Assembly (NCBI RefSeq): GCF_019844075.1
Contig: NZ_CP081964.1
Span: 1,674,001 to 1,738,000, forward strand
Length of the DNA: 64,000 nucleotides
Source of the DNA: Curtobacterium sp. TC1
GTDB lineage: Bacteria > Actinomycetota > Actinomycetes > Actinomycetales > Microbacteriaceae
Direction: 5' to 3'
Of the stretch, positions 2,460 through 23,018 are shown in pieces. Every line of letters begins with the position of its first letter. Position 1 is the first letter of the stretch. Made by a program: the position numbers and the translations under genes. A model generated the notes under the pieces. The model did no database searches. It had not been told where the DNA came from and worked only from the letters and a program-made list of their open reading frames with translations.

Positions 2460-3914
2460 TCAGGCGCCGCGCCCGGAGATCGCGCGGATCCGCGCGACGA
2501 TGCGTGGGTTCCGGGCCCCGAAGCTCAGGGCCGTGAGCCGGCGGAGTGACACGGTCGCCCGGTGGACGAGCAGGCCCGTCGCCTCGGCGATGTCCGAGAC
2601 GGCGTGCCAGCGCGCTCGGAGCGACGCGGGGTCGATCTCGGTGTCGGCCGCCATCCGGATCAACTCGACGAGCCCGTCGCCACCGCGCCAGGACGTGCTC
2701 TGGTTCTCGAAGCGACGGAGGATGCGGTCGATCGCCGACGCACGGTGGTTCGCGACCGCGTGCGACCAGCGGATGTCGTGGGAGACCGGGTCGACGAGGA
2801 TCCAGCGCGGCGCGTTGGCGTTGAGCGCGGACAGCTGCGCGAAGGTCGTCAACGCCCCGAGCGCGACGGCCACGTCGAAGATCTGGCGAGGACGTCCGCC
2901 GACGGCGATGAGGGCTCCGGGGAACGCCTGCCGTGCCGGCCGGATCTGGGCCTTCGAGACGATGACCGTGACGACCACGTCGTCCGCCGCGCACGCGAGG
3001 GTGTCACGGACACGTGCCACGACCTCCGGGGTGATCTCCGTCGGCAGGTGCAGGGCCACGCGTACGACGTCGTCGTCGGGCAGGAACGCGTCGGCGAACA
3101 CGTCGACGGCGTCGCGGTAGCGGGCGAGGAACAGGGCGACGGCGCCGGCGTAGAACGGGTACCGCTCGAGCAGGATGCGCTCGTGCTCCAGGCGGAGCGA
3201 GGGGCCGCGGTCGCCGCTGAAGCTCGTCGAGCCGGTGTGCAGGACGAGCGCGCGGTTCGCCAGCACCGACGTGTAGCCGTGCTCGTTGATGCGCAGGCAG
3301 AAGTCGTTCTCCTCGCCGTAGCCGGGGGAGAACACCTCGTCGAACAGGCCGAACCGGTCGATCACCTCGCGCCTGATGAGGAAGCAGAAGCCCATCGCCA
3401 CGGGCGAGACCGTGTGCCGGGGGAGCAGGTACTTCGTCCGGCCGTGGAGCTCGCGCGTGCGGCGCGGGGGCAGCGTCGCCCGGGGGTTGCGCCGGGCGTA
3501 GGGGAACGACGCGATGGTCGCGTTGTCGCTCCGCGCGCACACCACCCCGATCGCGTCGTCGGACGCCAGCACGGCGGTCATCTCGTCGAGGAAGCCGGGC
3601 ATCGGGACCGTGTCGCTGTTGAGCAGCAGGACGTCGTTGCCGGTCCGGTCGAGTTCGAGCACGGCGCGGTTGCAGTTGCCGACGAACCCGAGGTTGCGCG
3701 GGTTGCGGGTGTACTCGAAGCCGGGGTGCTCACCGACGAGCTCGAGGACGCGGGCCTCGATGGCGTCGACGTGGGGTCCGACGTCGTTGGCCAGCAGGAC
3801 CCGGTCGACCGAGAAGTCGACGGTCTCCAGCAGTGTCTGGATGCAGCGCTCGAGGCCGGGGAGGTCGTCGTAGATCGGGACGACGATCGTCACCGGACGC
3901 CGGTCGCGGCTCAT
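2460..3914 (-). CDS. Glycosyltransferase family 2 protein with C-terminal extension
   Basis: This 484-residue GT-A fold glycosyltransferase transfers a sugar from a nucleotide donor during surface-glycan assembly. The GT2 domain spans about residues 5-290. It has VTIVVPIYDD at the start, the DxD-type metal/donor motif LLLNSDTVP (residues 97-104), MGFCFLIRREV (about 174-184) and the acceptor-side GYGEENDFCLR (198-208). About 190 further residues form an extension with no recognisable motif. The ATG at 3914 overlaps the upstream GT4 stop by 4 nt, so the two are translationally coupled. A close paralogue lies at 20185-21645, at the other end of the cluster; both share NATIAS(F/I)PY and VAMGFCFL. 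Sugar specificity cannot be read. Confidence 0.9.
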   Translation of the reverse strand: MSRDRRPVTIVVPIYDDLPGLERCIQTLLETVDFSVDRVLLANDVGPHVDAIEARVLELVGEHPGFEYTRNPRNLGFVGNCNRAVLELDRTGNDVLLLNSDTVPMPGFLDEMTAVLASDDAIGVVCARSDNATIASFPYARRNPRATLPPRRTRELHGRTKYLLPRHTVSPVAMGFCFLIRREVIDRFGLFDEVFSPGYGEENDFCLRINEHGYTSVLANRALVLHTGSTSFSGDRGPSLRLEHERILLERYPFYAGAVALFLARYRDAVDVFADAFLPDDDVVRVALHLPTEITPEVVARVRDTLACAADDVVVTVIVSKAQIRPARQAFPGALIAVGGRPRQIFDVAVALGALTTFAQLSALNANAPRWILVDPVSHDIRWSHAVANHRASAIDRILRRFENQSTSWRGGDGLVELIRMAADTEIDPASLRARWHAVSDIAEATGLLVHRATVSLRRLTALSFGARNPRIVARIRAISGRGA

Positions 3915-5281
3915 CGGCGCACCAGCTTCCGTGCGACCACCCCCGGTCGGGCGAGGAGTCGGCCGACTGTCCCGGAGCGGGCGCGAACACGGTTCGCGAG
4001 CAGGCCGAGCGCGGCGCGCGCACTCGTGGCGCCGAGCGAGGCGTACGCACCGGGGAGCTCGAACCAGTACCGCGCAGCCTGGGGGAGTCGGTAGCCCTCG
4101 GTGCCGACCAGCGCGACCAGACGTGCGATCGCCGCCGCGTTGTCGTGACCCGCGCCGGTGACCGACGCGAGCCGGTCCGGAGCAGCCGCGCCGTGCCTCC
4201 TGGCCGTCTCCGGCTCCGCCGCGTACGTCGCGAGCGCGTCCGTGAGCGCCGTGACGTCGTCGGCGTCCACGAGCACGCCGGTGACGCCGTCGTCGACGAG
4301 CTCGGCGCTCCCGCCCTGGCGGGTCGCGACGACCGCCTTGCCCAGGGTCATGTACTCGGCCGTCGTGCGACCGAAGGCCTCGATCGTCGACGGGGTGATG
4401 CAGACGTCCGCAGCCTCGATGAACGGGGCGGGCGTGTGCTGCTCGCCCGCGAACACGACACGGTCGGCGACACCGAGCGCGCGGGCGCGCTCGGTCAGGC
4501 GCTGGTCCTCGCCGGGGTGCTTCCAACTGCCGACGAAGCAGACGCTCGCGGCGACCCCGCGCTCGTGCAGCGCACCCAGGGCGTCCACGACACGGTGCTG
4601 GCCCTTCGACTCCTCGACACGGCCGAGGACCGTGATCCGGAGGCCGGGCTCGGCCTGCGGGAACGGCGCCACCGCCGGCGTCTCGTCCTTCGAGGCCAGG
4701 AGTCGCTCGGTGTCGACCGTCGGGTACGCGACGGAGAGCTTGTCGGCGGGGATGTACTGCGCCAGGTGCTCGCGCATCGCCTCGGAGTTGGTCACGACGG
4801 CACCGGACAGCAGGCCGATGTCCCCGAGGACACCCGCGCGCCCGGTCTGGAACTGCAGCCCGTGGTCGAGGTCGCCGTACTCGCGGACGAACCACGCCTG
4901 CGGGATCCCGAGGACCGCGGCGGCGAAGGACGCCCACGGTGCGACGAGGGTGTTCGTGACCACGAGGTCCGGGCGCTGCCGCTCGTACAGGCGGATGATC
5001 GCGTTCACCGCGGCGTAGTCGACGGTGGCGAACGCCGCGCGTTCCGCGGCCGGAGCCGGCTGCGGGCTCGGCAGCGCCCACCCGCGGAACCGCAGGGCGT
5101 CGTAGGACCAGCCGCGGTCGTCGAGCGCCTCGATGAACTTGCCCTTCGGGGCCTTCGTGACGAAGGTCGGGGTCATCGTCGGGTCGATCGCCAGCCAGTC
5201 CTCGACGAACCGGAGGAGGGACCGCTCCGCGCCGCCGAGGTTGACGGGCGCCGTCGAGTGGTTGGCGAAGCTGACGATCAC
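3911..5281 (-). CDS. Glycosyltransferase family 4 (GT-B fold)
   Basis: This is a 456-residue cytoplasmic or membrane-associated glycosyltransferase. The N-terminal acceptor domain begins MIVSFANHSTAPVNLGGAER, with the GGAE loop typical of GT4. The donor-binding domain carries VLGRVEESKGQH (residues 218-229) and the E-x7-E-like motif EAFGRTTAEYM (301-311), where nucleotide sugar is held. The start is GTG 5281. It is divergent from the ABC exporter permease gene at 5450, with 168 bp between, and is coupled by a 4-nt overlap to the GT2 gene downstream. It probably adds a sugar to the exported glycan; donor and linkage are unknown. Confidence 0.9.
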   Translation of the reverse strand: MIVSFANHSTAPVNLGGAERSLLRFVEDWLAIDPTMTPTFVTKAPKGKFIEALDDRGWSYDALRFRGWALPSPQPAPAAERAAFATVDYAAVNAIIRLYERQRPDLVVTNTLVAPWASFAAAVLGIPQAWFVREYGDLDHGLQFQTGRAGVLGDIGLLSGAVVTNSEAMREHLAQYIPADKLSVAYPTVDTERLLASKDETPAVAPFPQAEPGLRITVLGRVEESKGQHRVVDALGALHERGVAASVCFVGSWKHPGEDQRLTERARALGVADRVVFAGEQHTPAPFIEAADVCITPSTIEAFGRTTAEYMTLGKAVVATRQGGSAELVDDGVTGVLVDADDVTALTDALATYAAEPETARRHGAAAPDRLASVTGAGHDNAAAIARLVALVGTEGYRLPQAARYWFELPGAYASLGATSARAALGLLANRVRARSGTVGRLLARPGVVARKLVRR

Positions 5282-5449
5282 CCACCAACCCTACTCACGA
5301 TTCTCCAAGGATTCGCCCTCCGGCCACTCGCCACGCGCCGAGGTCACCGCGTCGAACATGCGTTGTGCAACCGGTGTGCGAGAATGCCTCGTCCCCGATT
5401 CCCTGTGAGGAGCGCTCCGCTGCGCCCCGGAGGAGCCTGCACCCGAAGC

Positions 5450-6271
5450 ATGACGTACCTGAACGAGCTCATGTCGTCGCGCGAGTTGCTGGCGAACCTC
5501 ACTGCGCGCGAGGTCAAGGGCAAGTACCGCCGCACGGTCTTCGGACAGCTGTGGTCCCTGATCAACCCACTCGCGACGATGCTGATCTACACGATCGTGT
5601 ACTCGTTCATCTTCCGGGCGCGTCTCGAGGTCGGTGACCCCAGCGGACTGAACATCTACCCGCTCTGGCTCATGTGCGGCCTGCTGCCGTGGATCTTCGC
5701 GCGCAACGTCATCAACTCGGGGATGACCTCGATCGTGGCCAACGGGTCGCTGATCAAGAAGGTGTACTTCCCGCGGATGACGCTGCCCCTCGCAGCGGTC
5801 GGATCGTTCGGGTTCACCTGGCTGGTCGAGATGGGCGTGCTGCTGATCGCACTCGCCATCGCTGGGTCGAACTTCTGGATCTACCTGCCGGTGATCGCGC
5901 TGACGATGGTGTTCCTCGCCATGTTCGCCGCCGGCCTCGGGTTGATCCTGTCGATCATCAACGTGCACTTCCGCGACATGCAGCACCTCGTCGGCATCGG
6001 CCTGCAGATGTGGATGTACCTGTCGCCGATCATCTACCCGCTGTCGCTCGTCGAGGACGCTGCGAACAAGGCCGGACACCCGTGGATCATCCACGTCTAC
6101 AAGCTCAACCCGATCGAGCGGTTCTCCGAGGTCTTCCGGAACCTCATGTACGACAACCGTCTCCCGAACTGGACCGACCTGGTCGCGTGCGCCCTCGCAG
6201 GATGCGTGTCGCTCGCACTCGGCTACTTCGTGTTCTCCCGCAACGAGAAGAAGCTGGCTGAACTCCTGTGA
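5450..6271 (+). CDS. Polysaccharide ABC exporter permease (Wzm/TagG type)
   Basis: This 273-residue integral membrane protein has about six hydrophobic segments and belongs to the ABC-2 family that exports lipid-linked polysaccharides or teichoic acids. Diagnostic features are the N-terminal amphipathic stretch with VKGKYRRTVFGQLWSLINP and the later NVHFRDMQHLVGIGLQMWMY and YLSPIIYPLSLV segments. ATG 5450 was chosen; GGAGGAG at 5429-5435 is 14 nt upstream, which is long, and ATG 5471 is an alternative. The stop overlaps the ATPase gene GTG by 4 nt. Together they form a complete two-gene exporter in the middle of the glycosyltransferase genes, so the cluster product is probably assembled on the cytoplasmic face and then flipped. 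Confidence 0.92.
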   Translation: MTYLNELMSSRELLANLTAREVKGKYRRTVFGQLWSLINPLATMLIYTIVYSFIFRARLEVGDPSGLNIYPLWLMCGLLPWIFARNVINSGMTSIVANGSLIKKVYFPRMTLPLAAVGSFGFTWLVEMGVLLIALAIAGSNFWIYLPVIALTMVFLAMFAAGLGLILSIINVHFRDMQHLVGIGLQMWMYLSPIIYPLSLVEDAANKAGHPWIIHVYKLNPIERFSEVFRNLMYDNRLPNWTDLVACALAGCVSLALGYFVFSRNEKKLAELL

Positions 6272-6996: not shown

Positions 6997-7010
6997 CCCC
7001 ACGCTGCCCC

Positions 7011-7016
7011 TAAGGT
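7011..7016 (+). promoter_or_regulatory. Probable -10 element, leaderless start of the acyltransferase gene
   Basis: TAAGGT lies exactly 6 nt before GTG 7023 with no purine-rich Shine-Dalgarno sequence between. Transcription would then begin at or next to the start codon. The same TANNNT-6/7-start layout recurs at six other genes in this window. Confidence 0.5.
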
Positions 7017-7022
7017 TGATCC

Positions 7023-7721
7023 GTGCAAACGGATGTTGAGGAGCTGTCGGCGTACTCGGACGAGCGGGGCAACCGGATCGAGTACAGCGGCCCCAAGCGG
7101 GGCAACGTCAAGATCACGTTCCGCGGCTCGAACAACGTGATCCGGGTCCACGAACGTGCTCGCCTCGGGCGGATCGTGGTGAGCATGGACTGCGACAACG
7201 GCGTGTTCGAGATCGCGGAGAACCACGGCGCGCCGGCGTTCGTCGCGAACATCCGGATCGGCCAGGACTCGTCCGTACTCGTCGGGGCCAACTCCTCGAC
7301 AACCGCGAACTGCGTCATCTCGGCGACCGAGGGGACGACCGTGCGCATCGGCGACGACGTCATGATCGCCTCGCACGTGCAGATCCGGGCGGACGACGCG
7401 CACCCGATCTTCGACGTGCGCACGGGCAAGCGGGTCAACGTCTCGAAGTCGATCGAGATCGGTGACCACGTCTGGCTCGCGCTCGGGGTGACGGTCCTCG
7501 GCGGCACCACGATCGGACGTGGCTCGGTCGTGGGCACGGGGTCGATCGTGACCAGCCGGGTCCCGAACAACTGCATCGCCGTCGGGACGCCGGCCAAGGT
7601 CGTCCGGCGGGACGTCGCCTGGGAGCGGCCTCACCTGTCGCTGAAGGAGCCCTTCTACAAGCCGGACGCCTCCACCGTCGAGCGTTCGCCCTTCTGGGAG
7701 CTGACGGACTCCGACGACTGA
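7023..7721 (+). CDS. Left-handed beta-helix acyltransferase
   Basis: This 232-residue protein is built of hexapeptide repeats: examples are IRIGQDSSVLVGANSST, VRIGDDVMIASHVQIRADD and IEIGDHVWLALGVTVLGGT. It has the C-terminal capping motif RVPNNCIAVGTPAKVVRRD of the maltose/xenobiotic acetyltransferase class (LbH_XAT-like). The histidine in MIASHVQIR (around residue 118) is the likely catalytic base. Such enzymes transfer acetyl or succinyl groups from CoA to sugars. It follows the exporter genes by 26 bp. Its last 67 bp (7655-7721) overlap the 3' end of the opposite-strand fusion gene. Acceptor and acyl donor are unknown. Confidence 0.85.
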   Translation: MQTDVEELSAYSDERGNRIEYSGPKRGNVKITFRGSNNVIRVHERARLGRIVVSMDCDNGVFEIAENHGAPAFVANIRIGQDSSVLVGANSSTTANCVISATEGTTVRIGDDVMIASHVQIRADDAHPIFDVRTGKRVNVSKSIEIGDHVWLALGVTVLGGTTIGRGSVVGTGSIVTSRVPNNCIAVGTPAKVVRRDVAWERPHLSLKEPFYKPDASTVERSPFWELTDSDD

Positions 7722-10504: not shown

Positions 10505-12070
10505 GTGACCGGACCCCTGCCCGTGCTGTCGGTCGTCGTGCCGGTGGGAACCGTCGACCACCGGTTCGACCTCGCGCTCGAGGCACTGCGGTCCCAGAGC
10601 CACACCCGGCTCGAGATCATCCTGGTACTGGACGGGCTCGACCCCGACGCTCGAGCTGCAGTTCACGACGTCGCCGCACGAGATCCTCGGGTGGTCGTGG
10701 TGGAGAACAACGAGCGGCTCGGCGCGGGGAACGCGCGCAACGTCGGGCTCCGCACCGCGACTGGCGAGTACGTTGCGTTCGCGGACGCCGATGACGTCGT
10801 GCCCGCGGACGCCTACCGTCGATTGCTCGGCGTCTTCGCTCAGTCCGCCCCCGACGTCGTGAGCGGACGGGCCGAGCAGTTCACCGCAGACGGCCGGGAG
10901 GTGACCTACTGGACGGTCGACGATCCGCTCTGGACCACCGGAGGACGCGGTCTGCGTCTGTCGGACACCCCACCGCTCGCGTTCGACCACACACCGTGGA
11001 ACAAGGTCTTCAACCGGACGTGGCTGTGCGAGACCGGCGTCGAGTTCGCCACGCACACCACGTGCGAAGACGTCTCGTGGTGGGCGCGGCTCGTGGTCCG
11101 GGCAACGGTTGATGTCCTTCCGGAGGTCGTGTACCGCCATCGTCGACACGACGGTTCGGTGACGGCGGGCATCGGTCGTGGTGACGACCTGAGCGACTGG
11201 GTCGTGCAGACCAGAGCAGCCGTCGAGACGTACGAAGCGCACGGTGCACGCGAAGCCCGTGCTGCACTGGGCAGGCGGTTGATCCGCCGAGAAGCCTGGA
11301 CACGGGTCCGGGCGATCGATGCGCTCAGCCCATCGGATGCACAGGTGCTCGCTGACTTCGTGGCCTGGATCGGATCGTGGGCAGAGCCGAACGACTTCGA
11401 GCAGCTCAGCGCGTTCCCCGGGACCGCGTACGCGCTGCTCCGGCAGCGCGAGACCCACCTCGTCGCTGCTTTCATCAGGGCGTTCGACCAACCCGCAGAC
11501 GACGCCGTCGAGCGATGGCGCCGCCTTGCCCCTGAAGTCGGCCGCGCGATCGCACCCGGTCGCGACTTGGCTACCGACCTCTGGCGTGAGCGCATGTTCC
11601 GGCCGGTCGTGGACGCGGCGCAGCGGCGTGAGGTGCTCCCGATCCGCCCTGAGACCGTCGTGGAGTTCTGGGAGGCGTTCGTGGGTGACGGGTTGGACGA
11701 CAACGAACAGCGGGTCCTCTCGGCTCTGCGCGACGGAGCAGTGGAGGATGTCGCGTTCCTGCGTCGGAACCGGCGTGTCCACCCCGTCGCCGATCGCCGC
11801 CTCGGTGCACTCAGGATCAGCTTCGAGGGCCTCGAGGGCTCCGCACCGGGGCGCATCCTCCGCGATCGCGACGGGGTGACCACGGTCGTCCACCAGGGAT
11901 TGCTGTCCTCCGACACGGTCGTCGCGTCGTCCGCCCGCCCCGGTGACCTGTGGTCCGTCGAGTTCGAGTTGAGCGGTGGTCGCCGGCACCGGGTCGAGGT
12001 CGCAGCGGCCCCGTCGGGGATCACCCGGGTCAGGAACGCCATCCGAGCGCGGAGTGGGCGACTTCGTTGA
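10505..12070 (+). CDS. Glycosyltransferase family 2 protein
   Basis: This encodes a 521-residue protein starting at GTG 10505, with GGAG 9 nt upstream. The GT2 domain covers about residues 5-230: LSVVVPVGTVDHRFDLALEA, IILVLDGLD, GAGNARNVGL and the metal/donor motif FADADDVVP (92-100). It is followed by TPWNKVFNRTWL and a conserved CEDVSWWARL acceptor motif. The remaining 280 residues are mostly helical and end in a short beta-rich segment. The gene is divergent from the fusion gene (120 bp between) and overlaps the next GT2 gene by a TTGA junction. It is probably an inner enzyme of the glycan cluster. Confidence 0.88.
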   Translation: MTGPLPVLSVVVPVGTVDHRFDLALEALRSQSHTRLEIILVLDGLDPDARAAVHDVAARDPRVVVVENNERLGAGNARNVGLRTATGEYVAFADADDVVPADAYRRLLGVFAQSAPDVVSGRAEQFTADGREVTYWTVDDPLWTTGGRGLRLSDTPPLAFDHTPWNKVFNRTWLCETGVEFATHTTCEDVSWWARLVVRATVDVLPEVVYRHRRHDGSVTAGIGRGDDLSDWVVQTRAAVETYEAHGAREARAALGRRLIRREAWTRVRAIDALSPSDAQVLADFVAWIGSWAEPNDFEQLSAFPGTAYALLRQRETHLVAAFIRAFDQPADDAVERWRRLAPEVGRAIAPGRDLATDLWRERMFRPVVDAAQRREVLPIRPETVVEFWEAFVGDGLDDNEQRVLSALRDGAVEDVAFLRRNRRVHPVADRRLGALRISFEGLEGSAPGRILRDRDGVTTVVHQGLLSSDTVVASSARPGDLWSVEFELSGGRRHRVEVAAAPSGITRVRNAIRARSGRLR

Positions 12071-14681: not shown

Positions 14682-15797
14682 TTATGCCTCAGGATCGGGC
14701 CGGACCGGATGCGGCGAGAGCACGACCGCTCGGAGGAGGGCGTCGTAGCGTCGCGAAACGGTGAACGGGGCGAGCCTGGCGCTGAAGTCCCGCGCTGTTC
14801 CTCGTGCGGGCAACGGCTCCGACAGCACGTGCGCGAGCGCAGCGGCGTTGCCCGGCTCGAACCAGCGAACCCAGGGCTCGTCGCCGAAGTCGCGCCGCAG
14901 GTGTTGTTCGTCGGGGAGCACGGTGGGCACGTCGAAGGTGCCGGCGAGGTGGAGACTGCCGGAGTTCAGGATCCGCCGGTAGGGCAGCACCGAGACGTCC
15001 GCTGCGTCGAACCACTGCTTCACGTCCGCATCGTCGACGTAACCGTGGTGTCGAACCGTCCGCAGGCCGCGGGGCAACAGTCGGTCGATGGTCGCCTCGT
15101 CCTCCTGACTCGTCTTGCCGGCGAGCAGCAGGACGAAGCGGTCCGGCTGCTCAGCCCGTTCCAGCGCCTCGATCAGCAGGTCGACGCCCTTGTACGGCCG
15201 GATCTGACCGAAGAAGAGGACCGCGAGGTCTTCTGCACCGAGACCGAACCGGGCTCGTGCTTCCGCTCGCGTTCCGCTGCCGTCGTAGACACCCCGGTAG
15301 CTCGGGTGCGGGATGTGCGAGACGACTCGCCCCGAGAGGTCGTAGTGGGGAGCCACCACGTTGCTCGTGTCCGAGTTCATGACGTGGACCACGTCGGCCG
15401 TCGCGGAGAGGTACCTGTTGAGTGTGATCTCGAGGTCTTCATGGCGCACGTCGTGTGGGAGTGTGTTGTGGACGGTCCAGATGACCTTCGCTCCGCGCCC
15501 TCGTGCCGTGTCGACGGCTGCTCGGAATCGACCGAGTCGCTCGCTCGCCTCGTCAGCCCCGTCGGCTCGTTGCACGATCGGCGCCGTCCAGTGGACGTGC
15601 ACCACGTCGCCGGCGCCGAGGTGTTCGAGGTCCCGCTCGAAGCGCTCGAGCCTCGCCGACTCGACCACGTCCCACCCCGAAGCGCGTGGTGCCAGGAGCA
15701 TGAGGTTCAGGTAGGGGTTGTCGCGGTAGACGGGGAAGACCGCGAGTCGCGGAGGACGCTCGGCGTCCCGAGGGCGCGCACGCTCTGTTGCTGCCAC
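14682..15797 (-). CDS. Glycosyltransferase family 4 (GT-B fold)
   Basis: This is a 371-residue GT-B glycosyltransferase. It has VVHVHWTAPIVQ and VIWTVHNTLPHD in the N-terminal acceptor domain. The donor domain has LFFGQIRPYKGVDLLIEAL, with the K of R-x-x-K-G contacting the diphosphate, and SVLPYRRILNSGSLHLAGTF. The second conserved Glu of the classical E-x7-E motif is not obvious: the loop reads ILNSGSLHLA, as in the GT4 subgroup with an NSG loop. GTG 15797 starts 6 nt after TAGGAT on the minus strand, suggesting a leaderless mRNA. It heads a two-gene operon with the DUF6270 gene and is divergent from the SGNH hydrolase gene. Confidence 0.87.
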   Translation of the reverse strand: MAATERARPRDAERPPRLAVFPVYRDNPYLNLMLLAPRASGWDVVESARLERFERDLEHLGAGDVVHVHWTAPIVQRADGADEASERLGRFRAAVDTARGRGAKVIWTVHNTLPHDVRHEDLEITLNRYLSATADVVHVMNSDTSNVVAPHYDLSGRVVSHIPHPSYRGVYDGSGTRAEARARFGLGAEDLAVLFFGQIRPYKGVDLLIEALERAEQPDRFVLLLAGKTSQEDEATIDRLLPRGLRTVRHHGYVDDADVKQWFDAADVSVLPYRRILNSGSLHLAGTFDVPTVLPDEQHLRRDFGDEPWVRWFEPGNAAALAHVLSEPLPARGTARDFSARLAPFTVSRRYDALLRAVVLSPHPVRPDPEA

Positions 15798-15868: not shown

Positions 15869-16549
15869 GTGCGTGTGGTTCGAGCCCTCTTCGTCGTGGT
15901 GATCGTGATCGCGGCCCTCGCGGTGTCGGCACGGACCCTCGACGGCTCTCAGCCGCAGGCGGTCGGAACGGCGGTGTCCTCTCCGGTCCGGCTCGCGGTC
16001 GTCGGTGATTCGCTCAGCGCCGGAGCAACCCGGTACCTCGGCAACGGTCTCGACGACGGGACGTGGATCACGTCCGCTGTGGGCGACGACGTCGAGTTCG
16101 TCGTCGGCTGGGCCCGCTCCGGAGCGACCCCGGAGCAGATGGCGCGACATGTACGACCCGTTCCGGACGTCGATGTCCTGGTGATCCTCGCCGGGACGAA
16201 CGCGGTTCGCCTGCACCGAACCCTCGCCGACGAAGCAAGTGCCTACCGCGACATCGTGCGTACCGTCCGCCCGCACTCCGTCCTCATCGCGGCGCTCCCG
16301 CCGTACGACTGGCAGCCCGATGCCGCTGCAGCGTACAACCGAGCGCTGCGCGAGCTGGCGGTGGCCGAGGGGTGGCACTGGGGTGACCCGTGGGGATTCG
16401 CGCGCGACGGGTCCACCTGGGTCGACGGGGTCAGCGCGGACGGCACGCATCCGGCCGGGCCCGCCCAGTACCGTCGACTCGGTGACGCGATGCGCGAACT
16501 CATCCTGCGCGTCCACGACGACCAAGTGCTCACGCTCGCCTCGGAGTGA
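15869..16549 (+). CDS. Membrane-anchored SGNH/GDSL hydrolase
   Basis: This is a 226-residue protein with an N-terminal hydrophobic segment (residues 4-21, VRALFVVVIVIAALAVSA). It is a signal anchor or signal peptide, so the enzyme acts outside the membrane. SGNH blocks: VVGDSLSAGA near 49-58 holds the nucleophile Ser; VILAGTNAVRLH near 110-121 holds the Asn block; SADGTHPAGPAQY near 188-200 holds the catalytic Asp and His. Such enzymes hydrolyse or transfer O-acyl esters on carbohydrates. GTG 15869 has GGAGG 8 nt upstream. The gene is next to a second, shorter SGNH copy at 16602. It is probably an editing esterase or transferase for the glycan. Confidence 0.85.
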   Translation: MRVVRALFVVVIVIAALAVSARTLDGSQPQAVGTAVSSPVRLAVVGDSLSAGATRYLGNGLDDGTWITSAVGDDVEFVVGWARSGATPEQMARHVRPVPDVDVLVILAGTNAVRLHRTLADEASAYRDIVRTVRPHSVLIAALPPYDWQPDAAAAYNRALRELAVAEGWHWGDPWGFARDGSTWVDGVSADGTHPAGPAQYRRLGDAMRELILRVHDDQVLTLASE

Positions 16550-16601: not shown

Positions 16602-17209
16602 ATGTTCAGAGCTCGTGCCAAGATCACCCCGGATTCATCGATGACCTTCGCCGTGTCGGGAGACTCCGTGACGGCCAGACCGGACTCGTGGCGGGATCAG
16701 CTCGGAGACCGCCGTCTCCGACTGGTGGGCGGCTTCGCGGAAGACGGCGCGACATCGGAACGGGCGTTCGGGCAGGTCCGTCGATCGTTGGCCGACGTCC
16801 TCGTGGTGATGCTCGGGATGAACGACGTCCGCGAGGGTGTCCCCTTCGAGGAGATGACGGCGAACATCGAGAAGATCGTCCGGTTCGCCGAGTGCCAGAC
16901 CGCACTCCTGTGTCTGGTTCCCCCGAGCAACCACAGTGACGGGGCGGTGAACCAGCGAGCGCTCGGTGTCGTGGCCAACCGGCACCTCTTCGACCTCGGT
17001 GCGCGGCGGGGATGGATCGTCGCGGACCCCTTCGCCTTCGCCCGTGCGTCGAACAACTCGTGGGGCGGGGATCGAGCGACGACGGCACGCACCCGCTGCC
17101 GCACGTCTCCGCCGAGGCTGCGGTCCGCATGCGTCTGTTCATCCGGCAGGCCGTAGCGACGTCCGGACTGAACCAGAAGGCAGCCGAGGTACCTGCGCAC
17201 GCCGGGTGA
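16602..17209 (+). pseudogene. Second SGNH hydrolase, frameshifted in a G run
   Basis: From ATG 16602 the frame encodes an SGNH-like protein (FAVSGDSVTARPDSWRDQL, then VVMLGMNDVREGVP) up to ADPFAFARASNNSW. After the run TGGGGCGGGGATC (17061-17073) it turns into arginine-rich non-protein-like sequence ending at 17156. In the +2 frame relative to it, the catalytic motif SSDDGTHPLPHVS and a plausible helix (AAVRMRLFIRQAV) continue to TGA 17207-17209. Inserting one G in the run joins the two parts into about 202 residues that align with the neighbouring SGNH gene (ADPFAFAR/GDPWGFAR, then DGTHP). Without the motif the protein would be inactive. No signal peptide is visible. It is either a disrupted gene or a base-call error. 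Confidence 0.75.
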
Positions 17210-17255: not shown

Positions 17256-17411
17256 TCAGTCGAGCGTCGCGACGATGTACTCGGCCTCGTGCAGGACCGA
17301 GCAGAACGCCTGGCCCTCGTGGTCGAGCGCATCGCGCTTCAGGATGACTGCACCGCACACCGAGCACTTTGTCGTGAAGGTCGACCGCACGACGTCTGAG
17401 ATGAGCGACAT
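17256..17411 (-). CDS. Small zinc-ribbon-like protein, 51 residues
   Basis: This is a very short gene read from ATG 17411 to TGA 17256. The product has a C-x2-C pair in TKCSVCGAVILKRD and a second FCSVLHEAEY element (Cys and His), a spacing that could bind one zinc ion. No Shine-Dalgarno sequence is clear. Protein-like composition and the regular Cys pattern argue that it is real. It sits alone between a convergent SGNH pseudogene and the large GT2 gene upstream (101 bp away). Function is unknown; it could be a regulator or a small adaptor. Confidence 0.6.
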   Translation of the reverse strand: MSLISDVVRSTFTTKCSVCGAVILKRDALDHEGQAFCSVLHEAEYIVATLD

Positions 17412-17512: not shown

Positions 17513-20185
17513 TCAGAGCGCCCGGACGACCCGCTCGGCTCCGGCATCCGCCGAAACCACCTCGGCGAAGTCCCCGTCCGCCACGACCTGCCCCGCCGCG
17601 AGCCACACGACGTTCCGCGCGCCCGGTTGCGGCACGAACGACGGGACTCCCGCTCCCGAACCGCCAGCGACCAGCACCGTGACGTCGTCCAGTCCGCTCG
17701 ACCCCCGGTACCAGGACGTCGACAGGTCGACCTGCACGAAGTGACCGGCGGCCTCGAGCGCAGACACGAGCGCGCTGACGTCCGCCACCCGGGTCCCGTC
17801 GTGCTTCACCGCGACCCGGAGACCGGAAGCACCGGAAGCACCGGAAGCGCCGGCAGCACCGGAAGCGCCGGCAGCACCGGAAACCCCGGCAGCACCCGCC
17901 CGCTCCCGCACGACGATCGGCCGCGACGACCGCACCATCACGGCGTGCCCCTTCGGCAGCCCCGGCTCGACCCCGAGCCACCGCAGTCCGGCGGCCGCGT
18001 AGTGTCCTGCTGCGTCCGCCGCCGGGTACCGCCCGCGCCAGCGCTCGTCGAACACGCGCCGATTGTCCACGCGGGCGTCGTCGCGACCGGGGGTGCGGCT
18101 CTCGTGGTGCACGACGACCGAGGACGGCACGACGGCGAAGGCCGAGCCGTCCGGTGACGCGGCGAGGGCCCGGAGGCACAGGTCGACGTCCTCGAGCCCG
18201 TTCGCGAACACCGGGTCGAACCCTTGCCAGCGGATCAGGTCGACGGCCCGGAACGCAGCGGCAGCAGCGGTGATCGCCGAGAAGCGGCGACCACCGGCAG
18301 CACCCGGCCGGGCGGTGTCGGTCCCGGCACCCGCCAACGCCCGCGAAGCGTCGTACCGCGGGTGGTCGCCGAGGAAGTGCCATGGCAGCACCTTGTCCCC
18401 GCCGAACACCGTGCCCGCTGCCTGCACGACCCCGTCCGGGTACACGAGCAGCGGTTGCGCGCCGAGCACCGTCGGGTCGTCCAGCGCGGCGACGAGCGGC
18501 CGCAGCCACCCGGTCGTGACCTCGGTGTCGTTGTTGAGCATGACGACGGTGCCGCCGGTGGACCGGGCCAGGCCGAGGTCGCTGCCCAGCCCGAAGTTCC
18601 GGTTCCGGTCCTCGCGCTGCAGCAGGACCCGCGGCTCGTCGCCGAACCAGGCTCCGAGCACGGCGGACACCGAGCGGGGGGACCCGTTGTCGATCAGCAC
18701 GACCTCGACCCGGTCGCCCTCGTGGTCGGCGGCGTGCAGCACGGCGTCCACGGCGCGCCGGGTCATCGTCCAGTCGCGGAACACCGGCACGACGACGGAG
18801 ACCAGCTCGGCGTCGCGCGCCGGTACCGCGTCGGCGAGGGCGTCCCAGTCGATGCGGTGGCGGGCGAGGGCGACCTCCTGCCACGATGCGGGCTGCGCGG
18901 AGGAGAGCCGTCGGGGGTCGCGGACGTTGTCGTAGTCGACACCGATGACGGGCACGTACGCGGGCACGCCGGAGCGCTTCCCGATGCGCAGCAGCCACTC
19001 CCAGTCGATCCAGCGGCGCAGGGTCTCGTCGAACGGCCCGGCGGCGGCGGCGACGTCACGACGGACGACGAGCGCGTTCAGGTCGATGAAGTTGCCGGCG
19101 AGGAGGTCGTCGAGCGTGCCGTCCTCGCCGCGGTACGTCTCGGCGGGCGCGGTGGAGTCGTCGGCGTTGTTCGCGCCGGTCATCCGGACGCCGGTGTGCA
19201 CGCCGGGTCCGTCCGTCTCGAGCAGCCCGGCGAGTGCGGCGGACAGGTGCTCGGGCCGCCAGGTGTTGTCGGCGTCGAGGAACGCGACGAAGTCGCCGCG
19301 GGCGGCCGCGAGTCCGGTGTTCCGCGCGGCTCCGGCCCCGCCGTTCTCCCGCTCGACCAGACGGACGCGCAGCTCGTCGGCGGCGATGCGCCGCACGACG
19401 TCGGCGGTCTCGTCGCCGGATCCGTCGTCGACGACGAGGAGCTCCCAGTTCGCGTGCTGCTGCGCGCGCACCGAGGCGATCGCCGCGCCGACCACGTCGG
19501 CACGCCGGTACACCGGCATCACGACCGACACGAGCGGTTGCTCCGCGTCACGCCGTGCGACACCACGCGGGTACCGGGCGAGTGCCTCGGCGACGTCGGG
19601 TCCGCCCCACGTGGCCCGGTAGCGGCGCCGGGTCCGGTGCTGCGCGTCGGCGAAGGCGCGGGCAGCGGAGACGGCTGCGTCGCGTGCGGCGCCCCAGGTG
19701 GGTGCGTGGCCACGGCGGCCGGGAGGCACGGGGAGCGTGGTCGCGTCGGTCGCGTTCCGCAGGAAGTCACGGAGCGCATCGAGCGTGGACGCCGGGCGGT
19801 CGGCTTCCGACACCGAGGCGGCGTACACGCCGGCGTCGAAGAGCGGTCCGGTCTGGAAGAGCTCCGGGCCCTCCTGGTGGAGGGCGTCGTACCAGGACAT
19901 CGTGGGGACGGGCTGGTGCTCGCGCATCCACTCGTGCTCGATGAGCGGGTGCAGCGAGAGCCCCCGCTGCCCGTCGTTGTGCACGTAGAAGGCGATGGCC
20001 TCGGCGTCGCTGTCGAACGTCCGTCCGGTCTGTGCTTCGAGGTACGCGCGGTCGAGGACACCGAACTCGGCGATCCGCCGGGCCCAACGGTCGAGCCGGT
20101 CCGTGACGGTCAACGGCTTCTCGGGGCCACGGAACGGACGCGCCAGGCGTCGCGCGACGCGCCCGAGGCCCTTCGCCTCGGCCAT
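17513..20185 (-). CDS. Large glycosyltransferase with two GT2 domains
   Basis: This encodes 890 residues. An N-terminal helical region (1-210) precedes GT2 domain one: LVSVVMPVYRRADVV at 218-232, VVDDGSGDETADV and the LDADN donor motif at 303-307. GT2 domain two follows: LVSVVVPVFRDWTMTRRAVD at 461-480 and VVMLNNDTEVTTGW at 547-560, with FANGLEDVDLCLRAL as acceptor motif. Two GT-A domains allow processive addition of a two-sugar repeat, as in O-antigen and rhamnan polymerases (known for the architecture; inferred here). A Gly/Ala/Ser linker at about residues 761-788 comes from 9- and 18-bp DNA repeats. The ATG overlaps the upstream stop (TGATG). Confidence 0.88.
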   Translation of the reverse strand: MAEAKGLGRVARRLARPFRGPEKPLTVTDRLDRWARRIAEFGVLDRAYLEAQTGRTFDSDAEAIAFYVHNDGQRGLSLHPLIEHEWMREHQPVPTMSWYDALHQEGPELFQTGPLFDAGVYAASVSEADRPASTLDALRDFLRNATDATTLPVPPGRRGHAPTWGAARDAAVSAARAFADAQHRTRRRYRATWGGPDVAEALARYPRGVARRDAEQPLVSVVMPVYRRADVVGAAIASVRAQQHANWELLVVDDGSGDETADVVRRIAADELRVRLVERENGGAGAARNTGLAAARGDFVAFLDADNTWRPEHLSAALAGLLETDGPGVHTGVRMTGANNADDSTAPAETYRGEDGTLDDLLAGNFIDLNALVVRRDVAAAAGPFDETLRRWIDWEWLLRIGKRSGVPAYVPVIGVDYDNVRDPRRLSSAQPASWQEVALARHRIDWDALADAVPARDAELVSVVVPVFRDWTMTRRAVDAVLHAADHEGDRVEVVLIDNGSPRSVSAVLGAWFGDEPRVLLQREDRNRNFGLGSDLGLARSTGGTVVMLNNDTEVTTGWLRPLVAALDDPTVLGAQPLLVYPDGVVQAAGTVFGGDKVLPWHFLGDHPRYDASRALAGAGTDTARPGAAGGRRFSAITAAAAAFRAVDLIRWQGFDPVFANGLEDVDLCLRALAASPDGSAFAVVPSSVVVHHESRTPGRDDARVDNRRVFDERWRGRYPAADAAGHYAAAGLRWLGVEPGLPKGHAVMVRSSRPIVVRERAGAAGVSGAAGASGAAGASGASGASGLRVAVKHDGTRVADVSALVSALEAAGHFVQVDLSTSWYRGSSGLDDVTVLVAGGSGAGVPSFVPQPGARNVVWLAAGQVVADGDFAEVVSADAGAERVVRAL
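17821..17900. repeat. Short tandem repeats coding a Gly-Ala-Ser linker
   Basis: Units close to GGAAGCACC and GGAAGCGCCGGCAGCACC repeat about nine times in 9-bp steps. On the minus strand they encode a flexible Gly/Ala/Ser linker between the second GT2 domain and the C-terminal domain. Because the period is a multiple of three, copy-number change would keep the frame. Confidence 0.8.
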
Positions 20186-21645
20186 CAGCGGCGACCCGGC
20201 AGTCGTGCGGCGACCTTGGCGATCGCCTGGCCGGTGCGGAACGAGCGGCTCGCGCGCAGGTCGTCGAGCTCGCGGCGGAGCCGGGTGACCTCGTCGGAGG
20301 CGTTCCCCGCCGCGACCTCGGCGGCGGTGAGGTCGAGGGGGAGCAGCGCTGCCCAGCGGCCCTCGAGGGCCTCGGAGCGCGACGCGAGCGGCCCGGTCAG
20401 GCGACGGTCGAGCTGCTCGCGCGCCGCGACGAGTCCGCCGCGGTCCGTGGCGACGACGTGCGGGTCCAGCAGGGCGGCGACCTGGTCGGCTCCGGCCCGT
20501 TCCGCTCGTGACGACCACGGTGTCGCGGCCTGCTCGGTCCGGACGACGACGAGCTCGAGCGACCGCCGGTTGGCGGCGACGACCTCGGCGGGCGTGGGGT
20601 CCACGAGGACGGTGACGGTGACGAGGTCGTCCGGGTTCGGGGCGTCGGAGGTGACCGTCCACCCGCCGGGGGCCGACGTGCCGGGGGCGAGCCGGGCCTC
20701 CAGGTCGAAGCCGTCCGCGAAGGCCGCGTCGATCTCGCCGACCAGGCCACCGGCGTCCGCGACGTGCCGCAGGTCGACGGCGAGGCGGGGCGGGGGACCC
20801 GCGGGCACCAGGGCGTCGGCGAAGCGCTCCGTCGCCGTCGAGCCGTGCCGCTGGTAGGCGGCGACGGCGTCCGGCAGGAACGGGTAGCGGCGCTCGAGTT
20901 CGCGCTGGTGCGCAGCACGGAGGGCGTTGCGGTTGCCCGAGAAGCTCTTGCCGCCGGCGTGCAGGACCAGCGCGCGGTTGGCGATCCGCGACGTCCAGCC
21001 GTGCTCGGCGAGGCGCAGGCAGTAGTCGTTCTCCTCGCCGTACCCGGGGGCGAAGGCGTCGTCGAACAGCCCGTGCTCCGCGATCAGCTCACGGCGGGTG
21101 AGGAAGCAGAAGCCCATCGCGACCGGCAGCACCTGCGAGACCTGCAGGAGCGGGGCGACCGCGCCCCAGACGGCCCGCGTGCGCTCCTCGGTGCGTGCGG
21201 CGCCGCGGTTCGTCAGGCGGTAGGGGATGCTCGCGATCGTGGCGTTGTCGCTGCGCGCGGTGACGACGCCGGTGCGGTCCTCGTCGAGCACGTCGAGCAT
21301 GGCGTCCAGGAAGCCCGCGGTGGGGACGGCGTCGCTGTTGAGCAGCAGGACTGCCTCGCCGGCGTCGTCGGTGCCGTCGGTGCCGCGGTCGAGTTCGAGG
21401 ACGGCGCGGTTGCAGGTGCCCACGAACCCGAGGTTGCGGTCGTTGCGCTCGTACCGGAACCCGGGGCGGCCGTCGATCCGCTCGAGCAGGGCGCGCTCGA
21501 TCGCGTCGGCGTCGGGGCCGCAGTCGTTGACGAGGAGCACCCGGTGCACGGACGTGTCGAGGTGCTCGACGAGCCCGTCCACGCAGCGCAGCAGGGACTC
21601 GAGGTCCCCGTAGACGGGGACGACGACGAGGGTGGTGCGGGTCAT
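20185..21645 (-). CDS. Glycosyltransferase family 2 protein with C-terminal extension
   Basis: This is a 486-residue paralogue of the 2460-3914 protein. The GT2 domain shows LVVVPVYGDLESLLRCVDGL, NLGFVGTCNRAVLELD, the donor motif LLLNSDAVP, VAMGFCFLTRREL and GYGEENDYCLRLAEHGW. The roughly 200-residue C-terminal part differs from the paralogue and ends in a helical, possibly coiled-coil segment (VTRLRRELDDLRASRSFRTG). It overlaps the WsaF-like gene upstream by 4 nt (ATGA) and the double-GT2 gene downstream by 1 nt, so three glycosyltransferases are made from one coupled mRNA. Specificity is unknown. Confidence 0.9.
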   Translation of the reverse strand: MTRTTLVVVPVYGDLESLLRCVDGLVEHLDTSVHRVLLVNDCGPDADAIERALLERIDGRPGFRYERNDRNLGFVGTCNRAVLELDRGTDGTDDAGEAVLLLNSDAVPTAGFLDAMLDVLDEDRTGVVTARSDNATIASIPYRLTNRGAARTEERTRAVWGAVAPLLQVSQVLPVAMGFCFLTRRELIAEHGLFDDAFAPGYGEENDYCLRLAEHGWTSRIANRALVLHAGGKSFSGNRNALRAAHQRELERRYPFLPDAVAAYQRHGSTATERFADALVPAGPPPRLAVDLRHVADAGGLVGEIDAAFADGFDLEARLAPGTSAPGGWTVTSDAPNPDDLVTVTVLVDPTPAEVVAANRRSLELVVVRTEQAATPWSSRAERAGADQVAALLDPHVVATDRGGLVAAREQLDRRLTGPLASRSEALEGRWAALLPLDLTAAEVAAGNASDEVTRLRRELDDLRASRSFRTGQAIAKVAARLPGRR

Positions 21646-23018
21646 CGGGTGGACTCCTCGTGGTGGTGCTGGCCGTCGTGCTCGATCGCGGTGGCGAGTG
21701 CGTCGACTGCTGCGTCGAGCGGACCGCCGAGCGCGTGCTCCGCGAGCGGGGCGAAGCCGGTGGGGCCCTCGGCCGCGGCGCGGCGGACGGCGTCGGCCAC
21801 GGCCAGGCCGAGCGACCGGGCGTCGGCAGGGACCGCTGCCAGGTTGGGGTGCAGGTGCTCCCGGGTGCCGCGGAACTCGTTCGTGACCACGCGGGCACCG
21901 GAGATCGCGCCGTCGAACGGCGGGTGGCTCGGGTGTGGGCTGTGCTGCAGCGAGAGCACGACGTTGGTCGAGGCGATGAAGCGGAAGTAGTCGTCCCACG
22001 GCATCGTGCCGTGGCTCACGAGCTTGACGTCGCCGCGCCCGCCGTCGAGCTCGACGTCGCCGTGCTGCTCGCCGGCCGAGTGGAACTCCACCCGGATGCC
22101 GTCGGCCGCGAGCTCCTGCACCGCGACGCGCAGGGCGGCGACGCCGAGCCGGAACAGGTTGCGGTGCTTGCTCGGGCGTCCGTAGAACAGCACCCGGACC
22201 ACGTCCTCGTGCTGCCGGGCCGCCGCGACGCGCTCGAGCAGCTCGACGTCCAGGTGCGGTGCGAAGGTGCGCTCCGGCGGCACGTCCAGGTCCTCGACGT
22301 CGGCCAGGTACTTCCGCAGGGGTTCCGAGTTGACGAGCATGCGGAAGCCGGCGCGGTAGGTCGAGGCGGCCACGGCGTACTCGGTCGACCACGGGCTGAA
22401 GCCGGGCTCGTAGTCCTGCACCAGGTACGCCACCCGGTCGTGGGGGACGACCCCGGCGGTGACCGCGACGTCGAGCGGGTGCGCGGTCTTCCAATGCGTG
22501 GCGATCCAGACGTCGTCGCGGCCGAACTCGGTCTCCAGGACGTCCTCGCGACGGACGACGCGGACGCCCGGGCGGCCGTCGACCCGCGACTCCGGGAACC
22601 GGTCCGCCACGAGGGCCTCGGCCGCGGCGGCACTGTTGCCCGGCGTGGTCCAGCGGACCATGACCACCCGGACCGACCGGCCCAGTCGCGCACCGAGGGC
22701 GAGCGCGACGGCCAACGCCGTCTGGACCCCAGCGAACGCCGCGCCCTCGCGGAGCTCGTCCACCACGAGCACCACCTCGGGCTCGCGGTCGACGGTCCGG
22801 ATGCCCGCCAGGGCGAGGCTCGTCTCGACCAGCCCCTCGAACGGACGGGCGGCCAGTGGTGCTCGCTCGCGCTCGCGCCGGGCCACGCCGACGTCCACGC
22901 GGGACACCGTCCGCCCCAGCCGCTCGCGGACGTCGTTGCGGTAGTGGCCGTCCCGCGCGTACCGCTCGTTCACCCGGACGAGGTCGCTGACGAGGCGCCG
23001 TGCCTTCTCGAAGTTCAT
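21642..23018 (-). CDS. WsaF-like rhamnosyltransferase family glycosyltransferase
   Basis: This is a 458-residue GT-B protein and the first gene of the minus-strand operon that runs down to 17513. Motifs WIATHWKTAHPLDVAV and YLVQDYEPGFSPWSTEY, then RVLFYGRPSKHRNLFRLGV and SLQHSPHPSHPPFDGAISG, match the WsaF family. WsaF is a rhamnosyltransferase of S-layer glycan synthesis, related to GT4. Rhamnose as donor is a reasonable inference but not proven; no dTDP-rhamnose synthesis genes lie in this window. ATG 23018 is 52 bp from the divergent hisD start, and the promoter must lie in that gap. Confidence 0.82.
   Translation of the reverse strand: MNFEKARRLVSDLVRVNERYARDGHYRNDVRERLGRTVSRVDVGVARRERERAPLAARPFEGLVETSLALAGIRTVDREPEVVLVVDELREGAAFAGVQTALAVALALGARLGRSVRVVMVRWTTPGNSAAAAEALVADRFPESRVDGRPGVRVVRREDVLETEFGRDDVWIATHWKTAHPLDVAVTAGVVPHDRVAYLVQDYEPGFSPWSTEYAVAASTYRAGFRMLVNSEPLRKYLADVEDLDVPPERTFAPHLDVELLERVAAARQHEDVVRVLFYGRPSKHRNLFRLGVAALRVAVQELAADGIRVEFHSAGEQHGDVELDGGRGDVKLVSHGTMPWDDYFRFIASTNVVLSLQHSPHPSHPPFDGAISGARVVTNEFRGTREHLHPNLAAVPADARSLGLAVADAVRRAAAEGPTGFAPLAEHALGGPLDAAVDALATAIEHDGQHHHEESTR

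Follow-up and report, generated by a model that had tools for sequence, protein, structure and literature searches.

What does a 20-kb block of glycan genes build when it stands between dnaE and hisD in one Curtobacterium strain, while the same site is empty in that strain's closest relative? The block occupies positions 2460-23018 of the window, by which we mean the whole stretch of 64,000 nucleotides analysed here (C3:1674001-1738000 of the source genome, Curtobacterium sp. TC1, 4.16 Mb in three contigs). A previous inspection of the letters alone (below, the sequence-only reading) had taken it for a surface-glycan locus and the window's best candidate for an undescribed system, and had proposed a comparison of gene order across Microbacteriaceae. 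We ran this comparison on Curtobacterium, and it revealed an island that is present or absent at a fixed site. The genes of the block probably assemble a surface sugar chain that carries phosphate, and export it. Our best explanation, to which we give a probability of about 0.65, is that the region is a serotype-like surface-polymer locus: a frame would build the common part and export the finished chain, a core would set the repeating unit, and the phosphate would most likely come from a nucleotide sugar.

The gene content of 2460-23018 was checked by a Pfam domain search of the locus proteins (Table 1), which bore out the genes and positions listed by the sequence-only reading. We found an ATP-binding cassette (ABC) exporter pair (an ABC2 permease and an ABC ATPase), eight stand-alone glycosyltransferase (GT) genes (gt2A, gt4A, gt2B, gt2C, gt4B, gt2D, gt2E and one of WsaF type), a fusion with GT2 and Glyphos_transf domains, a hexapeptide acyltransferase of the left-handed beta-helix (LbH) type, a DUF6270 protein and two SGNH (Lipase_GDSL_2) genes. 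The claim that Wzx/Wzy and sugar-nucleotide genes are missing nearby held as well: no Wzx, Wzy, LCP or sugar-nucleotide family was recognized among the locus proteins and 33 other window proteins scanned. Outside that scan lay the open reading frames (ORFs) at 52734-53267, 54737-54997, 58496-58987 and 63427-63999 and an uncalled stretch near 51-52.7 kb.

To compare the site across the genus, we searched 60 Curtobacterium genomes, one per species, drawn evenly from a larger group and including the source genome, with hisD, dnaE and the fusion. In 59 of them dnaE and hisD share a single contig, and their spacing falls into two classes with nothing in between: 27-2391 bp in 42 genomes and 18.2-27.1 kb in 17. 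In the 60th, G031 (genomes are referred to by G numbers), dnaE stops 92 bp before the end of a contig and the island and hisD lie on another. This gives 18 island genomes, 17 with the fusion and one, G021, without it; 17 islands were seen between both anchors and that of G031 was inferred across the contig break. The island sits at a fixed chromosomal site with conserved neighbours, and its recurrence in other Curtobacterium genomes takes the block beyond chance.

The site is empty in G006, the closest relative of the window strain (99% identity over dnaE and hisD). The gene left of the island, hyp3, is present in 27 of the 42 empty sites, and in 25 of these its match ends 30-134 bp from hisD; the distances in G002 and G013 are 1571 and 1582 bp. 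No remnants of island genes were found in the 40 empty sites searched (G058 and G059 were left out), as all 89 matches came from three ORFs of the hisD/nrdR side.

When genes were called and compared with the window proteins, a common plan emerged in the 18 islands: gt2A-gt4A leftward, permease-ATPase rightward, a variable stretch, gt4B leftward and gt2D-gt2E-wsaF leftward, followed by hisD. The permease, ATPase and gt2E genes were called in every island, gt2A and gt4A in 17 (the stretch is cut in G031, and both genes can be seen in the matching record L130). The wsaF gene is at the site in all 18 at 58-93% identity (17 called, that of G025 in pieces). Both gt4B and gt2D are present in 17 islands, the exception being G021, which has another protein at the gt2D position; the small ORF at 17256-17411 was called in 16, not in G021 or G046. 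The gt2A protein is 83-92% identical in the 14 other intact fusion-bearing islands and 70% identical in G021. Of the 60 genomes, only the 18 with islands have permease copies of at least 69% identity, other matches reaching at most 37% except for a repeated record end in G028.

Two records of this collection need comment. In CP018783 (Curtobacterium pusillum AA3; L123 and L135) the start of the island with dnaE and hyp3 appears at both record ends with (nearly) the same identities, which looks like the untrimmed overlap of a circular chromosome. In CP121450 (Curtobacterium flaccumfaciens; L129) the island, dnaE and hisD are all in many broken frames, probably read errors, since the genome is rated 65% complete.

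Between the two halves of the frame the islands differ. The core of the window (LbH acetyltransferase, a fusion of more than 80% identity, gt2B, DUF6270 and SGNH2) is common only to G003 and G046. Its LbH protein is 94% identical in the former and 83% in the latter and was not found in the other 15 islands; gt2B was called, besides the window, only in these two (71% and 59%). The mean pairwise identity of gt2C among the islands is 48% (G025 and G031 were dropped and G021 was left out of such averages), and relatives of SGNH1 were called in 6 of 18 islands, the window included. The other cores carry fusions 46-55% identical to that of the window, on either strand, two each in G009, G017 and G033. 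At 70% identity, nine fusion types can be told apart among 15 genomes (longest fusion per genome; ten pairs above the line).

Further core families were defined by clustering, with one representative scanned for each and three for the AT3 proteins. AT3-SGNH proteins occur in 7 islands (eight genes, two of them in G021) alongside further AT3 proteins, so that at least 10 islands other than that of the window have an AT3 or AT3-SGNH gene (four representatives by Pfam, the others by clustering). A GT61 family is found in other cores, and a GT-C family of PMT_2 type lies left of gt2A in 7 of 18. Nine of the 18 islands encode a protein with FN3 and exo/endonuclease/phosphatase-like domains (in the one representative scanned, both matches fall just short of the cut-off). 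It has a signal-like N terminus, for example at L010:12207-13817, and might cut phosphodiester bonds of the polymer. G021 stands apart with a divergent frame (permease 69%) and, in place of the fusion, a core of two AT3-SGNH genes, a UDP-sugar dehydrogenase and a GT2-methyltransferase protein.

We then asked which genes move together, using the 15 intact fusion islands (105 pairs, 91 for gt2C; 999 label permutations) and leaving out G025 (broken frames, 65% complete), G031 (cut) and G021 (no fusion). Identity follows the flanks for gt2A (rho 0.57), gt4A (0.69), the permease (0.74), gt2D (0.47) and wsaF (0.69), each reached in at most 5 of 999 permutations, and weakly for gt2E (0.29; 27 of 999). 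No such tracking was seen for the fusion (-0.04), gt2C (0.03), the ATPase (0.15; 144 of 999) or gt4B (0.20; 98 of 999). With flank identity held constant, the fusion was tracked by the ATPase (0.35; 6 of 999), gt4B (0.36; 8 of 999) and gt2C (0.43; 1 of 999); the partial correlation was unclear for gt2D (0.01), gt2E (0.18) and wsaF (0.20). One pair illustrates the pattern: G007 and G034 have flanks 98%, permeases 99% and wsaF proteins 94% identical, and fusions only 50% identical. The plain reading of these sequence comparisons is that the core has been exchanged between species, its left border lying in or near the ATPase gene and its right one between gt4B and gt2D. An alternative that applies to the ATPase and gt4B is co-adaptation to the polymer. 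A conserved frame around an exchanged centre, as expected of a serotype-like locus, is what the islands display.

Presence itself is scattered over the dnaE+hisD tree (C-terminal 410 residues of DnaE plus HisD; 60 rows, 845 columns; 21 of 57 inner branches weak) as if shuffled. The minimum is 14 changes, of which starred branches force 6; among 500 shuffled labellings, 104 came out no higher (shuffle mean 15.7). One gain followed by losses only would take 18 losses (14 with weak branches collapsed), and gains only would take 17. These counts are only indicative, because the tree is short and its genes flank the island.

Outside the 60 genomes, a permease profile run on named genomes returned 24 loci: 16 in Curtobacterium (one a repeated record end), 2 in Frondihabitans (76-77% identity), 2 in Frigoribacterium (70-71%) and 4 in metagenome-assembled genomes (36-54%). 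The Frondihabitans loci have gt2A-gt4A-permease-ATPase with fusions. Those of Frigoribacterium have the same four genes and gt2E-wsaF, with no fusion within the 20.8 kb examined; a fusion-less version of the locus exists there, as in G021. Since dnaE was not found in the ~7 kb left of gt2A in any of these four loci, the frame is not tied to the dnaE-hisD site.

The product of the core can be approached through the fusion, which was found in 17 of the 18 islands and whose named relatives at more than 80% identity are Curtobacterium. Its GT-A half matches PF00535 and, over 42 sequences, keeps the acidic motif (D102 is invariant, and D99 and D101 are conserved in at least 90%). For the TagF-like half, inspection covered the two histidines and the TDxSS stretch, out of five active-site motifs that define TagF enzymes; both catalytic histidines are kept. 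The modelled GT-A half matches the fold of the wall teichoic acid glycosyltransferases TarS, TarP and RmlT; the modelled TagF-like half matches TagF, TarL and two capsule multienzymes (14% identical); and the part in the middle (model residues ~345-425) is rich in beta-strands. According to the sections of PMC5974469 used here, polymerisation from nucleotide donors has been demonstrated for TagF-like polymerases that carry GT-A domains, and TagF-like domains have been assigned both hexose-phosphate and glycerol-phosphate transfer. By analogy, we propose that the fusion is a polymerase making a phosphodiester polymer. G028 has a second GT-A/TagF-like fusion (C1:1467407-1470016; L096), 48% identical and ~1.4 Mb from its island.

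Where, then, might the phosphate come from? The sequence-only reading had suggested polyol phosphate, which our searches did not support. TagD (TIGR01518) was over its cut-off in 0 of the 60 Curtobacterium genomes. Weaker matches to the model appeared in 57 (best 38.7 bits); those in the source genome are two HldE-type proteins whose second domains exceed the heptose-1-phosphate adenylyltransferase cut-off, and the matches in the 57 genomes may be the same HldE-type genes. In a control set of 150 Microbacteriaceae (a few Curtobacterium among them), 8 genomes were over the TagD cut-off and 48 matched at E 1e-15, so the model is able to pick up TagD within the family. For IspD, every one of the 18 island genomes gave a single strong match (111-189 bits, in pieces in G025). 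A second strong, TarI-like one was found in none of them, with nothing else above 42 bits in a list sorted by E-value and reaching down to ~23 bits; the next match in the source genome is GlmU. Of the 60 genomes, only the island-less G035 has a second strong IspD match (139 bits), which lies beside a stand-alone PF04464 gene and also matches, below cut-off, the ribitol-5-phosphate cytidylyltransferase subfamily model. This shows that the search can detect a TarI-like gene. With neither of the usual routes, to cytidine diphosphate (CDP)-glycerol or to CDP-ribitol, found in the island genomes, the donor is more likely to be a nucleotide sugar, and the gene inventory favours a sugar-1-phosphate polymer over a polyol phosphate as the most likely product. 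Such a polymer has a precedent in the actinobacterial wall, the poly(diglycosyl 1-phosphate) (PDP) of Streptomyces coelicolor (PMC7831098, consulted in part).

Several loci met in these searches deserve mention in their own right. The HldE-type pair (L111:3326-4891 and 8541-9959; C3:2081-2088 kb of the source genome) has, by eye, SIS-domain and GT9-type neighbours, and a heptose pathway in a Gram-positive genus is possible. In G035 (L144; C1:565501-574500) the TarI-like gene, the stand-alone PF04464 gene and GT4 genes follow one another, and the group resembles a conventional polyol-phosphate locus. Besides that of G035, non-island PF04464 genes with strong matches were found in G031 (two), G057 (two) and G040, at L145:2444-6951 (G031 C25), G057 C22:84403-86928 and G040 C2:262707-263846, with 220-261 bits. 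Those of G031 are a TagF-like/GT4 fusion and a stand-alone gene, and in the latter three genomes neither TagD over cut-off nor a second strong IspD match was found. Weak PF04464 matches (22-32 bits) were seen in 58 of 60 genomes, all except G040 and G057, often within a few kb of the third-ranked permease match on the same contig. In the source genome an ABC permease match lies ~1.5 kb from such a weak match (23 bits) at C3:1130562-1133287. This pair is perhaps a core phosphopolymer exporter.

The best NCBIfam models for the ATPase are teichoic-acid exporters (TagH; E 1.8e-67) and galactan Wzt, all below their cut-offs. With these as its nearest models, we infer, as the sequence-only reading had proposed, that a glycopolymer made inside is exported by the ABC transporter. 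The Wzt_C domain was not found on this ATPase; the only Wzt_C match of the genome is at C3:2646921, in a second Wzm/Wzt pair near rmlC, rmlD and an RmlB-like gene (C3:2.64-2.66 Mb). The DUF6270 protein is modelled with an SGNH fold, its block I reads GSC with an invariant Cys12, and D235 and H238 are invariant. SGNH proteins are marked by a nucleophilic Ser in block I and a DxxH motif in block V. Because a Cys takes the position of the Ser nucleophile, we speak of likeness to SGNH rather than of full membership, and propose from the model that the protein is an acyltransferase or esterase. A WcbI-like identity was rejected, WcbI being absent among the fold-comparison matches listed, which is not proof. 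Acyl decoration, the last of the earlier chemical claims, is plausible given the LbH acetyltransferase here and the AT3-type genes of other islands.

Taken together, a scheme can be drawn for the locus. Frame genes (gt2A-gt4A and gt2D-gt2E-wsaF) would build a common part, probably a lipid-linked primer or a backbone with rhamnose in it, and the exchanged core would decide the repeating unit. The fusion would act as a polymerase alternating sugar transfer with phosphodiester-forming transfer, gt2B and gt2C would add further sugars, and the LbH, DUF6270 and SGNH proteins would put on or remove acyl groups. The phosphate would most likely be donated by a nucleotide sugar, as sugar-1-phosphate, rather than by a CDP-polyol in the form of polyol phosphate. 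The ABC pair would export the finished chain, presumably to be linked to the wall by LCP enzymes encoded elsewhere. The WsaF-type enzyme, which we take to be a rhamnosyltransferase, could be supplied with deoxythymidine diphosphate (dTDP)-rhamnose from the rml locus. Loss of the locus or exchange of its core would then change or remove a surface receptor.

Some of our results weigh against this explanation. The GT-A half folds, in the model, like the poly(ribitol phosphate) enzymes TarS, TarP and RmlT, which speaks for polyol phosphate, and missing TagD and TarI-like IspD do not exclude other CDP-polyol routes. With strong PF04464 genes outside the island in one island genome and three island-less ones, phosphopolymer genes are not peculiar to it. 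The border between frame and core is not absolute, because gt2A (0.33; 19 of 999), gt4A (0.28; 20 of 999) and the permease (0.23; 45 of 999) also show partial, weaker fusion signals. Some genes escaped the gene caller (gt2B in the window and, in G052, gt2C, which is visible in record L117), and absences of single genes in a given island are therefore uncertain. On the tree, with its 21 weak inner branches, dnaE and hisD could have been exchanged together with the island. Finally, no LCP gene was found among the window proteins scanned, and no genome-wide LCP search was made.

The chemistry is the point on which two rivals depart from our explanation. Instead of a free wall polymer, the island might make a strain-variable phosphopolysaccharide decoration for ligation to a core rhamnan, the product of the rml locus at a distance of 0.95 Mb, in the manner of the enterococcal polysaccharide EPA. 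The second Wzm/Wzt pair near the rml genes of the same genome fits this, as do rhamnan-bearing walls reported for some Curtobacterium (cited in PMC9862828, in the part used here) and EPA itself, described as rhamnan plus a variable teichoic-acid decoration (PMC7188991, in part). However, the island encodes an ABC exporter and a WsaF-type transferase of its own, and the EPA decoration is proposed to go via Wzx/Wzy-like proteins (same source), none of which is among the locus proteins here; we consider the decoration model doubtful. A strict wall teichoic acid, in which the TagF-like half would use a CDP-polyol to transfer a polyol-phosphate (of glycerol, ribitol or another polyol) and the GT-A half would glycosylate it, would agree with the fold of the latter. 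It seems unlikely to us with TagD over cut-off in none of the 60 genomes against 8 of 150 Microbacteriaceae, and with a single strong IspD per island genome while the second, TarI-like one belongs to the island-less G035.

The other two rivals concern the fate of the chain and the unity of the locus. A loosely attached, ABC-exported capsule or exopolysaccharide that is not wall-linked would suit the permease, which also resembles KpsM (below cut-off), and Gram-negative TagF-like polymerases do make capsules (PMC5974469, as far as used here). Yet no capsule-anchoring family was found among the locus proteins scanned, which leaves this rival improbable. Moreover, Gram-positive ABC-exported phosphopolymers are as a rule wall-linked. 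Scattered presence and a variable core might also be expected of an insertion hot spot that gathers unrelated glycosyltransferase genes with no common product. We regard this as very improbable: gt2A-gt4A-permease-ATPase and gt2E-wsaF keep the same order in every one of the 18 islands (with those of G025 and G031 put together from pieces), gt4B and gt2D are present in 17 (not G021) and the fusion in 17, and the left half of the frame recurs in Frondihabitans and Frigoribacterium.

Returning to the serotype-like locus, a bolder form of the explanation can be put forward, tentatively and somewhat against the odds. The one-protein GT-A/TagF polymerases of Curtobacterium and Frondihabitans would make poly(glycosyl 1-phosphate) wall polymers directly from nucleotide sugars, without CDP-polyol, and be swapped between species as cassettes, the locus would have been lost repeatedly without a scar, and the DUF6270 protein would be an SGNH acyltransferase with a Cys nucleophile in one of the cassettes. 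If true, this would amount to an "on/off plus swap" mode of surface variation in Curtobacterium.

Positions of all features are collected in Table 1.

Table 1. Genes of the island and its flanks (window positions; E-values are those of the Pfam matches)
Feature	Position	Strand	Domain match	Remarks
dnaE, C-terminal part	1..1233	+	PF14579	left flank anchor
hyp3	1594-2406			left of island
gt2A, GT2 glycosyltransferase	2460..3914	-	PF00535, E 4.8e-14	left frame gene
gt4A, GT4 glycosyltransferase	3911..5281	-	PF00534, E 2.4e-27	left frame gene
ABC-2 permease, Wzm/TagG-like	5450..6271	+	PF01061, E 2.8e-18	frame gene
ABC ATPase, TagH/Wzt-like nucleotide-binding domain, 242 residues	6268..6996	+	PF00005, E 1.6e-21	left core border
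Hexapeptide (LbH) O-acetyltransferase	7023..7721	+	PF00132, E 1.9e-8	core gene
GT-A/TagF-like fusion, 909 residues	7655..10384	-		core gene; proposed polymerase
gt2B, GT2 glycosyltransferase	10505..12070	+	PF00535, E 3.4e-23	core gene
gt2C, GT2 glycosyltransferase	12067..13770	+	PF00535, E 1.8e-25	core gene
DUF6270 protein, SGNH-like fold, GSC motif	13792..14637	-		core gene; proposed acyltransferase or esterase
gt4B, GT4 glycosyltransferase	14682..15797	-	PF13692, E 1.8e-12	right core border
SGNH1, GDSL/SGNH hydrolase-like	15875..16549	+	PF13472, E 3e-15	N-terminal hydrophobic stretch
SGNH2, GDSL/SGNH hydrolase-like	16641..17156	+	PF13472, E 8.6e-11	
Small cysteine-bearing ORF, 51 residues	17256..17411	-	no Pfam family	frame; absent from the sequence-only reading
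gt2D, tandem GT2 glycosyltransferase	17513..20185	-	PF00535 twice, E 1.9e-50	right frame gene
gt2E, GT2 glycosyltransferase	20185..21645	-	PF00535, E 1.4e-12	right frame gene
wsaF, WsaF-type (rhamnosyl)transferase	21642..23018	-	PF22772 and PF21374 (both WsaF domains)	right frame gene
hisD	23071..24378	+	PF00815, E 7e-144	right flank anchor

Some of these entries required a decision. A reading of the fusion with 1444 residues was rejected: its N-terminal third overlaps gt2B on the opposite strand, and the 20 nearest relatives measure 894-911 residues. The gt2B gene itself was found by eye, the codon-usage gene caller having preferred a false long frame. SGNH2 apparently ends out of frame, as its last part is unlike the relatives in G003 and G046, which were aligned over 74% and 71% of their length; this could be decay or a sequencing error. 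The core has 65-70% GC against 74% on the right side, and since other stretches are equally low, base composition says little. A plasmid or mobile-element source was rejected, as the DNA of the fusion had no match in 72,556 plasmid records and no integrase or transposase was found among the locus proteins. The same holds for a phage origin, for which PHROGs (five proteins tried) gave only generic glycosyltransferase, ABC and unnamed families.

If the locus sets the surface polymer, sequence would predict which strains share a surface type. This would matter in a genus that includes crop pathogens, as phages commonly use such polymers as receptors in Gram-positive bacteria (both PMC9862828) and lectin-guided toxins of Streptomyces respond to surface type (PMC13274773; both papers are drawn on in part). 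PMC9862828 also reports, in the part used, that PHASTER called prophages at 32 loci of its genome set that have wall-polysaccharide genes, a TagF and rml genes being among these genes; the 32 may include loci like this one or the rml locus. Additionally, scattered presence provides natural pairs with and without the island, such as the window strain and G006, in which the driver of actinobacterial surface-glycan turnover can be tested.

How does the island compare with known systems? Its proposed polymerase resembles the group 2 TagF-like capsule polymerases CslB, Cps12B, Cps1B and Ccs2, in which an N-terminal GT-A domain is joined to a C-terminal TagF-like domain and, as in the fusion, the acidic GT-A motif and two catalytic histidines are kept (PMC5974469, sections used). 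Unlike them, the fusion is from a Gram-positive actinobacterium and has a beta-strand-rich middle part; none of the four has a structure among the fold-comparison matches. Wall teichoic acid systems (TagF, TarL, TarS, TarP, RmlT) have separate sugar transferases and CDP-polyol synthesis, in contrast to the single fused protein and the lack of a TagD over cut-off here.

As a whole, the island is close in kind to the teichuronic-acid-like (TUA) loci of Streptomyces, actinobacterial wall-glycan loci with core genes and extensive gene variation, a TarS-like enzyme and O-acetylation, which are missing in some species (PMC13274773). In contrast to the island, they carry the sugar-nucleotide genes utrA, B, D, E, H and J and sit by the ribosomal protein genes L21/L27; an ABC pair or a GT-A/TagF fusion is not mentioned in the sections of that paper drawn on here. 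EPA likewise combines a conserved region with a variable one making a teichoic-acid decoration, but Wzx/Wzy-like proteins and CDP-ribitol from synthesis within the locus are proposed for that decoration, and organism and genes are unrelated (PMC7188991, in part).

Serotype loci of the pneumococcal cps type have fixed neighbours, conserved ends and an exchanged centre, as here, and are rarely absent as a whole; the Curtobacterium locus, by contrast, is missing entirely in 42 of 60 species. No description of it, nor of any Curtobacterium serotype locus, was found in our searches of open-access full texts, so the earlier idea of an undescribed system stands, within these searches, for this particular locus and does not extend to its kind. 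The two facts that tell most, a site left empty in related species and a core that is exchanged, were out of reach of the sequence-only reading. That kind is already known: a serotype-like variable surface-polymer locus, as EPA and the Streptomyces TUA loci are. The distinctive combination is that of an ABC exporter with a one-protein GT-A/TagF polymerase (17 of 18 islands), in genomes where neither TagD nor a TarI-like gene was found, and with absence of the entire locus from those 42 species.

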